NCBI RefSeq assembly: GCF_000025005.1
Contig: NC_013525.1
Span: 1,266,501-1,330,500, forward strand
DNA: 64,000 bases
Direction of reading: 5' to 3'
Source: Thermobaculum terrenum ATCC BAA-798
Lineage (GTDB): Bacteria > Chloroflexota > Chloroflexia > Thermobaculales > Thermobaculaceae
The translations under genes and the position numbers were made by a program. Every line of letters begins with the position of its first letter. Positions within the stretch are counted from its first letter, which is position 1. The notes beneath the pieces are model-generated. The model was not told the DNA's origin, did not search any database, and saw nothing but the letters and a program-made list of their open reading frames with translations. Shown here piece after piece: positions 43,868 through 47,811 of this stretch.

Positions 43868-43929
43868 AGGTCCGCAGGTTGTTAATCACAACACCCATCC
43901 GCCAAGAGAGGAGGATTTTATCTTACTGT

Positions 43930-45108
43930 ATGAAACTTTATGACACACTCACAAATCAGATCAAACCCTTAGCTGGCGAAGATGGTAGGGTGTCCGTCTA
44001 CGTCTGTGGTATTACACCATATGACACTACTCACTTAGGACATGCATTTCTGTATGTAACTTTTGATGTATTGATAAGATATCTGGAATCTACAGGATAC
44101 CAAGTCATCTATACCCAAAACGTAACAGACATAGACGACGATATACTAAGAAAAGCTAAAGAACTTAATATGTTCTATCTTGACCTCGCAGAAAGAGAAA
44201 CTAACAGATTTCTCTCTGACCTTAGGGCTTTGAATGTTAGGATGCCTGATCATTATCCTCATGCCACCCAAGAAATAGATGGTATGGTGGAGATAGTTTC
44301 AAAGCTAATAGATAAGGGGCATGCTTACGTCAGGGACGGCAACGTATACTTCGATATAGACACGTATGAAGGCTTTGGTCAGCTGAGTAAGCTGAGCCGA
44401 GAAGAGATGATAGCTATAGCTCGCGAACGGGGCGGAAATCCAGAGGATCCTCTGCGAGATGATCCTCTGGACTTTTTACTCTGGCAAAGGAGCGCGGAAG
44501 GTGAGCCTGCCTGGGATAGCCCATGGAGCAAGGGGAGACCAGGATGGCATATCGAGTGTTCAACTATGTCCCTAAAGTATTTAGGAGCTTCTCTAACTAT
44601 TCATGGAGGTGGGGCTGACCTTATATTCCCTCATCACGAGTGTGAGAGAGCACAATCCGAGTGCTACACCGGAATCTCACCTTTTGTAAAGCATTGGATG
44701 CATGTGGGCATGCTGAGATATCAAGGTGAAAAGATGAGCAAGAGCCTGGGCAATCTAGTGCTTGTAGATAGGCTTTTACAGAATTATTCTCCCGATGCTG
44801 TGAGGCTAGTACTAATATCTCACCATTATCAAGAAAGCTGGGAATACCAGGACAGCATGATTGAAGAAGCAGAAAAGCTTGCACAAAAGATTAGGATAGC
44901 CGCAAGCCTAGCACCAGCACATGATGCAGAGTTTCAAGATACATATGAGTTTGATCTCTTCAGGCAAGCAATGGAAGATAACTTGAACACCCCTAGGGCA
45001 GTAGAGCTCCTAAGAAGTTTATCGGAAGAGATCATTCAGAACGACGACAACAACAAAGCATGTGTGCTTAGGCAAATAGCCACAACTTTGGGACTCACAC
45101 TGCGTTAG
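43930..45108 (+). CDS. MshC-like short cysteinyl ligase (CysRS homologue without anticodon domain)
   Basis: 392 residues, far shorter than cysteinyl-tRNA synthetase (about 460) but close to MshC (about 410), the mycothiol cysteine ligase. It contains the catalytic class-I fold: CGITPYDTTHLGHAF (Cys26; CysRS normally has CGPTVYD and HIGNAR), WHIECS (Cys210), LIFPHHECE (His235, Glu239) and KMSKSLGNLVLVD. All four zinc ligands are kept. The IT-P-YD, LGHAF, DLIFPHHE and GNLVLV wording is MshC-like. It lacks the C-terminal tRNA-binding part. It probably activates cysteine and joins it to a small amine, unless it serves as the tRNA synthetase. Confidence 0.78.
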   Translation: MKLYDTLTNQIKPLAGEDGRVSVYVCGITPYDTTHLGHAFLYVTFDVLIRYLESTGYQVIYTQNVTDIDDDILRKAKELNMFYLDLAERETNRFLSDLRALNVRMPDHYPHATQEIDGMVEIVSKLIDKGHAYVRDGNVYFDIDTYEGFGQLSKLSREEMIAIARERGGNPEDPLRDDPLDFLLWQRSAEGEPAWDSPWSKGRPGWHIECSTMSLKYLGASLTIHGGGADLIFPHHECERAQSECYTGISPFVKHWMHVGMLRYQGEKMSKSLGNLVLVDRLLQNYSPDAVRLVLISHHYQESWEYQDSMIEEAEKLAQKIRIAASLAPAHDAEFQDTYEFDLFRQAMEDNLNTPRAVELLRSLSEEIIQNDDNNKACVLRQIATTLGLTLR

Positions 45109-45175: not shown

Positions 45176-47029
45176 CTATAACAGCCTTCTGAGGATTAAC
45201 CCAACAACCAAAGCTATCAACAGCCCTCCAGTGGCTACAGCGGGCATGACTGGTAACCCAGACCCCGAAGATACTGTAGACGATGCCGGATCCGACCCAC
45301 TATCGCTTGATTGTGGCGTTGGGATTACCTTAGAGGAATTACCATCCTGAGCCTCTGTACCGGCAGCAGAGCTGTTTCCACTCGACTTGCCATCATCAGG
45401 TATGATCTGTGTGGGTTCAGGCGAAGGCTTAGGACTCTCAGCGCTATTATTATCAGCGACATTATTATCTTTGCTTGGTCCTTTATTCGATGAAGAAGGG
45501 TTACCAGCAATATTCTTTGAACTAGAGGACTCGCTGACATTGGTCAACCTGATTATGGATCCATGACTACCCACAGCCCAAACAGTACCACTAGGTAAAG
45601 CATCCAGCTCATAGAACTTTTCATTCAGTGGTAGCTTTACCTTGTACCAGGATTTACCATCCCAGTGCAAGGCTACTCCTTTCTCGTCACCTACAGCCCA
45701 ACCGTTATTGGAGCTCAGCATAACCACATCACTAAGTCTGTCTTTGGTAGGACTCGAAACTTGCTTCCACTGAAGTCCATTCCAATGGATTATCGTTCCA
45801 CCGGAGCCCACCGCCCATGCATCGTCATCACTTAGAGTATCGACTCCATAAAACAGCTCCTTCACGGGCACATCAACGGCTTTCCAATCCCCATTGACAA
45901 CACGTGCCACCATTGGAATTGTCTCTTTTGTAACCGTATCCCATCCTCCCCCAACTGCCCAGCCATTACCATTCGGGAGAATAGACACTGCCCTCAAAGT
46001 CTTCATGACGTCAGGCTCTACATCTACCTTCCATCCACGACCATTCCAGTGGAATATCTCTCCACCCCCTCCTACCATCCATGCATTATCTGGAGATATT
46101 ATGTCCACATCGCTCATGTATGGTACCCTGGGAATTGGTCTATCTACCTTGGTCCATTTAGTGCCGTCATAGTGAAAACCACCCATATAGTTTTGTCCTA
46201 CGGCCCATCCTTCATTAGGATTGTACATGTAGATGCTGTGTATCCAATAAGGTATGGTCTGTTCCAATGTCCACTTACTACCATCCCACTTCCATATATG
46301 GCTTCTCCAGCCGTACTTGTTAGTGCGAGGATTATAATAAGCATCTCCTGACACGGCCCAACCTAGATCATCGGATAGCATATCTATTGCGTAGAACTGC
46401 TCATTGGTAGGACTTTCCACAGTTTCCCAAGTTTTACCATTTACCACAGTCACTTTAGCCGGTTCGGGTGGTTTTACATCCTTGAAAGCCTCGGAAGCAT
46501 CATCTACTATCCAGACCCTAGTCTTTCCAGGTATTACGTAATTCTTATAAAGATCCTGAATGTCGTTGGGTGGACCTGCAATACAACCGTGAGTACTCTC
46601 TCCACCAGGGACACCAAATCGCCATATCTTTAGCGTATAACCCTTGTAGGTGTGTATACCTATCCCGCCTCTATTTGGTATGGCTAACCTCATGAAATAA
46701 GGGGTGAGCACAACATCCCCTGTGTCAGAGAAATCATAACCACCTTGATTAGGTCTGTTAGATTTCTCTATAACCTTGAAATATCCACTGGGCGTTTCCA
46801 GACCCTTCTGTGTCCAAAGAGCTCCGGTAGCGACAGGGATTTCCTTTATGACATCCGACCAAAGCGGAGACTCAGGATTGCCTCTGGCTAGGTAGAGCCT
46901 TTGCCTATTCTTGACTATTACCAAGTAATATTCGTCCCCTGAAGCTTGGGAGGTATTTATGTAAGAAAGAATTAGTCCTGCGGATATAAGAAACGCAAGT
47001 ATTACCCTAATAGTCCGAATGAACATCAT
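45176..47029 (-). CDS. L,D-transpeptidase fused to a predicted seven-bladed propeller
   Basis: About 617 residues. Signal peptide at 1-30. YkuD domain from about 33 to 175 with GIHTYKG and STHGCIAGPP (catalytic Cys near 149), an enzyme fold that cross-links peptidoglycan. It is followed by seven repeats of about 40 residues with the core (D/N)(D/G)xWAVGxxGxIxHWNGxxW. Then comes a Ser/Pro/Asn-rich linker of about 85 residues, and a C-terminal membrane helix with basic end (RRLL). The strand VNGKTWETVESP before the repeats would close the propeller. The start is set at the ATG 47029 close to GGGGGG. Confidence 0.85.
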   Translation of the reverse strand: MMFIRTIRVILAFLISAGLILSYINTSQASGDEYYLVIVKNRQRLYLARGNPESPLWSDVIKEIPVATGALWTQKGLETPSGYFKVIEKSNRPNQGGYDFSDTGDVVLTPYFMRLAIPNRGGIGIHTYKGYTLKIWRFGVPGGESTHGCIAGPPNDIQDLYKNYVIPGKTRVWIVDDASEAFKDVKPPEPAKVTVVNGKTWETVESPTNEQFYAIDMLSDDLGWAVSGDAYYNPRTNKYGWRSHIWKWDGSKWTLEQTIPYWIHSIYMYNPNEGWAVGQNYMGGFHYDGTKWTKVDRPIPRVPYMSDVDIISPDNAWMVGGGGEIFHWNGRGWKVDVEPDVMKTLRAVSILPNGNGWAVGGGWDTVTKETIPMVARVVNGDWKAVDVPVKELFYGVDTLSDDDAWAVGSGGTIIHWNGLQWKQVSSPTKDRLSDVVMLSSNNGWAVGDEKGVALHWDGKSWYKVKLPLNEKFYELDALPSGTVWAVGSHGSIIRLTNVSESSSSKNIAGNPSSSNKGPSKDNNVADNNSAESPKPSPEPTQIIPDDGKSSGNSSAAGTEAQDGNSSKVIPTPQSSDSGSDPASSTVSSGSGLPVMPAVATGGLLIALVVGLILRRLL

Positions 47030-47139
47030 CCCCCCTAACAACACTTAACCTAACGCCACATTCACCTCACAATTAGACAGTGTATCAGACTGTGGGTAGA
47101 TTATCATAAGCTATATGATGTTAATGACTCACTCAATAA

Positions 47140-47811
47140 CTAATCAGAGAAAGATGCACTTAAGTTACGAGCGATCCATGATTTCAAATCAGCTGCTTCT
47201 TCGTCTGATACATAGTGAGCTATGGGATACTCTTTGTAGGTAACGTCTGCACCATGCTCTTTAAGAACTATCGATGCTTGTCTTCCCAAATCTATGGGGA
47301 TAACATCGTCGTACAGACCATGGGCAACAAAGCAATGTTTGCTAGCAAGTGAAGAATCTCCCATGTCATGTCCTGGTGTGACTACGTAACCGCTTAGCAT
47401 AATTGCTCCTGCAGCAACACTTGGTTCCTGAAGCAGGATAGACCCAGCCATAACAGCTCCTTGGCTAAAACCAAGCAGGTAGATCTTACTTGGGTCTATG
47501 GGATACGATTGAGGTAATTGAGTTAGGAACTCCCTGAGCAGCCCTATAGACCTCATGAACGTCGTCTTTTCAGGAGTACCAACACTTATGAATTCATACC
47601 AATGATAGCCAAAGCCAAGTTCAAACGGAGCCCTGACAGAAATGTAAAATAGATCTTCTCCGAGCTCATGTGCCAGGCTAACCAGGTCTTCCTCATTGCT
47701 ACCTCTACCGTGAAGCATAACAACACAGGGGTTTGGCCCTGAAGTACGTTTAGCTGGTCTTATTACTATATGGTGCAAAGCAAGGCTAGCAGCTTCATAA
47801 GACTGACTCAT
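47140..47811 (-). CDS. Predicted carboxylesterase (phospholipase/carboxylesterase family)
   Basis: 223-residue serine hydrolase. HGRGSNEEDL forms the oxyanion loop, LLGFSQGAVMAG the nucleophile elbow, HGLYDDVIP the Asp region and YPIAHYVSDEE the catalytic His. The arrangement matches the YpfH/Est family of short-chain esterases. No signal peptide. The ATG at 47811 follows AAGGAG. It lies 13 bp after terC in the same direction; the functional link is unclear. Confidence 0.9.
   Translation of the reverse strand: MSQSYEAASLALHHIVIRPAKRTSGPNPCVVMLHGRGSNEEDLVSLAHELGEDLFYISVRAPFELGFGYHWYEFISVGTPEKTTFMRSIGLLREFLTQLPQSYPIDPSKIYLLGFSQGAVMAGSILLQEPSVAAGAIMLSGYVVTPGHDMGDSSLASKHCFVAHGLYDDVIPIDLGRQASIVLKEHGADVTYKEYPIAHYVSDEEAADLKSWIARNLSASFSD

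Follow-up and report, generated by a model that had tools for sequence, protein, structure and literature searches.

Does the gene at 43930..45108 (+ strand) of the window, by which we mean the whole 64,000-nucleotide stretch of Thermobaculum terrenum ATCC BAA-798 DNA analysed here, encode an MshC-type cysteine ligase or a minimal CysRS? The original prediction, made from the letters alone, proposed an MshC-like ligase in a probably non-actinobacterial genome. It kept the minimal CysRS as the alternative, should the protein fall inside CysRS and its gene be the only cysS of the genome. The host, a heat-loving bacterium, indeed lies far outside the Actinomycetota: the genome belongs to the Chloroflexota, and the nearest named relative (59-60% identity) is a 'Thermobaculum sp.' MAG. 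In a survey of finished genomes, complete mshA-D sets were found solely in Actinobacteria, and mshD in just 27% of the mshC-bearing genomes (PMC6282198). Our literature search, with subscription journals mostly outside it, found no paper reporting mycothiol in Chloroflexota in its title or abstract.

The window gene encodes a short class I ligase

The open reading frame spans 43879-45108 (+). The ATG at 43930 and the stop codon at 45106-45108, which is included in the gene coordinates, delimit a protein of 392 aa; starting instead from the TTG at 43879, it would be 409 aa long. It is a class I ligase that retains the Zn-binding, HIGH and KMSKS residues. Performing a Pfam search, we found a CysRS catalytic domain (373 bits) and no full tRNA anticodon domain, as DALR_2 scored under its threshold (20.1 < 22) and nothing matched beyond it. 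The organism's own cysS carries a full DALR domain (67 bits). Hence, the protein was rightly described as lacking the anticodon domain, and its length fits MshC (about 390-415 aa, no anticodon domain).

The NCBIfam profiles TIGR00435 (cysS) and TIGR03447 (MshC) gave 409 and 397 bits, respectively, both far above chance. Since the protein misses the curated TIGR03447 cut-off (396.6 < 485.1 bits), we call it an MshC-clade ligase and do not formally assign it as MshC. AlphaFold predicts the structure with high confidence (pLDDT 93.7). Its fold (TM 0.89-0.92 to Mycobacterium smegmatis MshC, 3c8z/8hfm) is about equally close to MshC and CysRS structures; thus, the fold alone cannot separate the two. 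The slight lead of the cysS profile and the near-equal fold similarity speak for a shortened CysRS paralogue that still charges tRNA-Cys. We regard such a paralogue as very unlikely, given the missing anticodon-binding region and the insertion, tree position and separate cysS described below.

The ligase groups with MshC in its insertion and phylogeny

The motifs quoted in the original prediction were all found, and KMSKS too. CGITPYD (44005..44025, +) contains the Zn ligand C26 and T29, and in MshC this loop closes on the Cys-adenylate (PMC9736012). HLGH, the class I HIGH motif, is at 44032..44043 (+). The second Zn ligand, C210, is encoded at 44557..44559 (+), and the third, H235, belongs to the FPHHE (44626..44640, +) of DLIFPHHE. 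The KMSKS loop (44731..44745, +) precedes GNLVLV (44749..44766, +), whose L276 is kept in MshC-type proteins, while most CysRS have F, I or V. In the alignment, the Zn ligands C43, C231 and H256 of M. smegmatis MshC (PMC9736012) match C26, C210 and H235, confirming that all zinc ligands are kept, and T46/T83 match T29/T66.

The M. smegmatis enzyme is 43% identical to the window protein and of similar length, and the two share the Zn ligands, the GITPY loop, the ERGG insertion and KMSKS...GNLV. Bacterial CysRS has the catalytic fold and the Zn/HIGH/KMSKS machinery in common with it at about 40% identity. Unlike CysRS, the window protein has no anticodon-binding region, bears the MshC insertion and comes from a genome with a separate cysS. 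The insertion reads ERGGNP here (44425..44442, +; alignment column 168). As 'ERGxxP' it is common to all MshC-type proteins compared and absent from 42/43 CysRS; column 168 is G in 40/40 actinobacterial and Chloroflexota MshC-type rows, and all CysRS but one of the 43 have a gap there. Among single MshC-type positions, three columns are shared with MshC and two with CysRS instead. Our case for an MshC-type protein is built on the insertion and the clade.

We built a tree of 84 rows (18 Chloroflexota MshC-like proteins, 22 actinobacterial MshC, 1 Levybacteria protein and 43 CysRS) with IQ-TREE under LG+C20; its bootstrap had not fully settled. One branch separated the 41 MshC-type proteins, among them the window protein, its Chloroflexia relatives and actinobacterial MshC, from the 43 CysRS (bootstrap 100 / SH-aLRT 100), and this split was recovered in 200/200 bootstrap trees. 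Both other CysRS-like proteins of T. terrenum fell on the CysRS side. The window protein is thus no member of CysRS by either its clade or its C-terminal region, and its grouping with actinobacterial MshC upholds the proposal of an MshC-like ligase.

The tree draws actinobacterial MshC nested beside Thermobaculaceae (93/92). A separate Chloroflexota clade was not rejected against that nesting (AU p 0.06), and an origin of actinobacterial MshC inside Chloroflexota is not established by it. The Levybacteria row is an MshC-clade ligase (L064:1432-2661) from a contig of the candidate phylum Candidatus Levybacteria, with 50-51% identity to the window protein.

T. terrenum has a separate cysS

The T. 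terrenum genome consists of two contigs of 2,026,947 and 1,074,634 bp. A canonical cysS encoding 468 aa is located at C1:1966 kb; therefore, the window ligase is not the sole cysS. The suggested check for a second full-length cysS thus came out positive, and the minimal-CysRS case fails on both counts, tree position and copy number. A third CysRS-like gene (L029:8835-11192 on C2) encodes a 785-aa CysRS-GT2 glycosyltransferase fusion with a His-rich tail. The fusion gene adjoins a sulfatase-like gene and hemE/hemH-like genes. Four further class genomes (G002, G008, G012 and G017) contain CysRS-type frames of 820-912 aa.

The ligase is a class-wide trait of Chloroflexia

The short ligase was found in 55/61 genomes of the class and in all 53 well-assembled ones (at least 90% complete, at most 5% contaminated). 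The set contains what we take to be the class members Chloroflexus aurantiacus J-10-fl, C. aggregans, Sphaerobacter thermophilus and Herpetosiphon aurantiacus. In every ligase-bearing genome (55/55), the ligase is accompanied by one or more other CysRS-type matches, giving at least two matching loci each, which also weighs against a shortened CysRS, as a canonical cysS is present in the relatives too. The ligase is therefore a class-wide trait of Chloroflexia and no isolated oddity. An MshC-type ligase beside an ordinary CysRS in nearly all Chloroflexia suggests a mycothiol-like protective thiol.

Inspecting the surroundings of the ligase and MshA-type genes in about 20 genomes, we found no conserved pathway cluster. 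The lack of linked pathway genes is what one would expect of a dispensable relic, or of a moonlighting paralogue serving no dedicated thiol pathway. We consider this hardly credible, in view of the intact catalytic residues and of the ligase in 53/53 well-assembled genomes.

An MshA-type enzyme accompanies the ligase

Of the mycothiol genes to be looked for (mshA, mshB and mshD), the first has a candidate counterpart. An MshA-type GT4 of T. terrenum lies at C1:925731-927077, and its best PDB match is Corynebacterium glutamicum MshA (286 bits). It shares GGMN, T134, R154, S317 and E316/E324 with that protein (3c48; site numbers follow C. glutamicum MshA), and differs from it in having R, not K, at 78, as does Nonomuraea MshA. 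The MshA-type rows compared have GGMN (one exception, GGLT), T134 and S317, the same as actinobacterial MshA; at these positions, GGQN, S/A and P are found in sucrose-phosphate synthase and other GT4 relatives. Some of the compared sites bind inositol phosphate. On the tree, the MshA-type protein falls on the side of actinobacterial MshA (support 98). The curated cut-off of TIGR03449 was passed by no MshA-like protein of the class genomes; the T. terrenum enzyme reached 391 bits (cut-off 462.5), with MshA-type residues and an MshA-side tree position.

MshA-type GT4 enzymes occur in 57/61 class genomes, and in 53/55 of those with the ligase. They are found in many Chloroflexota without the ligase too. 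Across the phylum, counting by hand, 46/48 ligase-bearing genomes (545 bits or more) have an MshA-type gene, versus 91/153 others (Fisher p 3e-7); as this count is uncorrected for relatedness, we do not use it as proof. Inositol-1-phosphate synthase (Ino1) is present in 53/61 class genomes and in 49/55 with the ligase; in T. terrenum it scored 138 bits at C1:423100. Ino1 often lies beside a GT2, which indicates that it has other uses.

A second MshA-like GT4 of T. terrenum (L026:9196-10503) was rejected as MshA, being of the GGQN type and grouping with other GT4. Its neighbourhood looks heptose/lipopolysaccharide-type, with an isomerase, a bifunctional kinase and three GT9-like genes.

The search for MshB, MshD and mycoredoxin

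For the MshB step, T. terrenum has two PIG-L deacetylases, which scored 46 bits each against MshB (cut-off 224) and better against BshB1; they could perform this step. MshD was not found in T. terrenum (best match 28 bits, cut-off 163). Along with its host and its sub-cut-off score, the genome without MshD sets the window protein apart from M. smegmatis MshC. The proposed search of the genome thus yielded an MshA-type enzyme, deacetylases nearer BshB than MshB, and no MshD.

These results bear on an MshC-type ligase with a different acceptor, which would join cysteine to another amino-sugar or amine and so make a thiol or metabolite outside the mycothiol core. The missing MshD and the BshB-like deacetylases are in keeping with it. 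So are two related genomes, G038 and G060, in which the ligase is present and neither MshA nor Ino1 was found, and four ligase genomes without a detected Ino1 (G006, G010, G040 and G043). Against it stand the MshA-type enzyme with MshA acceptor residues in nearly all ligase-bearing genomes and the lack of BshC throughout the class, and we judge a different acceptor to be unlikely. The bacillithiol pathway (BshA/BshB/BshC) would likewise yield a cysteinyl-glucosamine thiol, and the PIG-L proteins score best with its BshB1. However, BshC was found in 0/61 Chloroflexia genomes while the control genomes were positive, and the cysteine-adding enzyme here is CysRS-like, not BshC-like.

Ten Chloroflexaceae have a mycoredoxin that scores above the curated cut-off; of the 14 control genomes, C. 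glutamicum alone has one. The ten presumably include the genomes of C. aurantiacus and C. aggregans. The mycoredoxin-like protein of T. terrenum stayed under the cut-off (62 < 89.5 bits). A gene for a glutaredoxin of the mycoredoxin family (TIGR02200; L282:7823-8090; L278-L281) is separated from Ino1 by about 11 kb in T. terrenum, and by about 5 kb in four Chloroflexaceae. MDMPI_N/DinB transferases were found in 39/61 class genomes; they are little informative, as they also occur in Bacillus subtilis and Deinobacterium.

A proposed route to a mycothiol-type thiol

Taken together, we favour as the likely explanation that the window gene product is an MshC-clade ATP:cysteine ligase, Zn-dependent and independent of tRNA, whose acceptor would most likely be glucosaminyl-inositol (GlcN-Ins) and whose product, Cys-GlcN-Ins, would act as a protective thiol; activity, acceptor and thiol are here deduced from sequence. 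By homology with MshC (residue roles, PMC9736012), Zn2+ would bind the cysteine thiol. ATP would then adenylate the cysteine carboxylate as the KMSKS loop closes. Residue conservation lends good support to this adenylation half. The amine of the amino-sugar would attack the Cys-adenylate to form an amide. The MshA-type glycosyltransferase (C1:925731-927077) would make the putative acceptor GlcN-Ins together with a phosphatase and a PIG-L deacetylase. Cys-GlcN-Ins, the product, might be the cell's small protective thiol, and either stay free of an MshD-type acetyl group or receive some other modification. Besides the ligase data, the MshA-type partner, Ino1, the lack of BshC, the mycoredoxins of Chloroflexaceae and the thiols of C. 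aurantiacus speak for this route. Against it speak the missed TIGR03447 and TIGR03449 cut-offs, the missing MshD, the lack of a gene cluster, the MshA-type genes of Chloroflexota that have no ligase, the other uses of Ino1, the ligase genomes in which MshA or Ino1 was not found, and the sub-cut-off mycoredoxin-like protein of T. terrenum.

On the best reading of the gene content, then, the thiol of Chloroflexia would be of the mycothiol type, either Cys-GlcN-Ins or a compound derived from it. According to a commentary citing Fahey and colleagues, Chloroflexus aurantiacus was found to contain novel thiols (PMC6336425). The Chloroflexia thiol may be identical with the unidentified Chloroflexus compound, and the Chloroflexus genomes fit. 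A bolder proposal is that an MshD-less thiol of the mycothiol type (Cys-GlcN-Ins or a novel derivative of it) is the C. aurantiacus compound, and that the mycothiol route is either older than Chloroflexota and Actinomycetota or was shared between the two; we see the chances of this as evenly balanced. The class-wide ligase and MshA-type enzyme predict a redox thiol for a whole bacterial class and offer a checkable chemical identity for the thiol seen in C. aurantiacus. They also bear on the origin of the mycothiol pathway and on the selectivity of MshC inhibitors.

Neighbours of the ligase gene

Beside the ligase gene, at 45176-47811 of the window, are genes for an abhydrolase and for an L,D-transpeptidase (YkuD) that carries a YCF48-like repeat region, and likewise in a relative (L182:4728-7453). 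This order is conserved within the family, and a functional link is not evident. In G053, a small protein that looks DinB-like by eye is encoded three genes from the ligase (L199, 5393-5912); the DinB fold includes thiol S-transferases.
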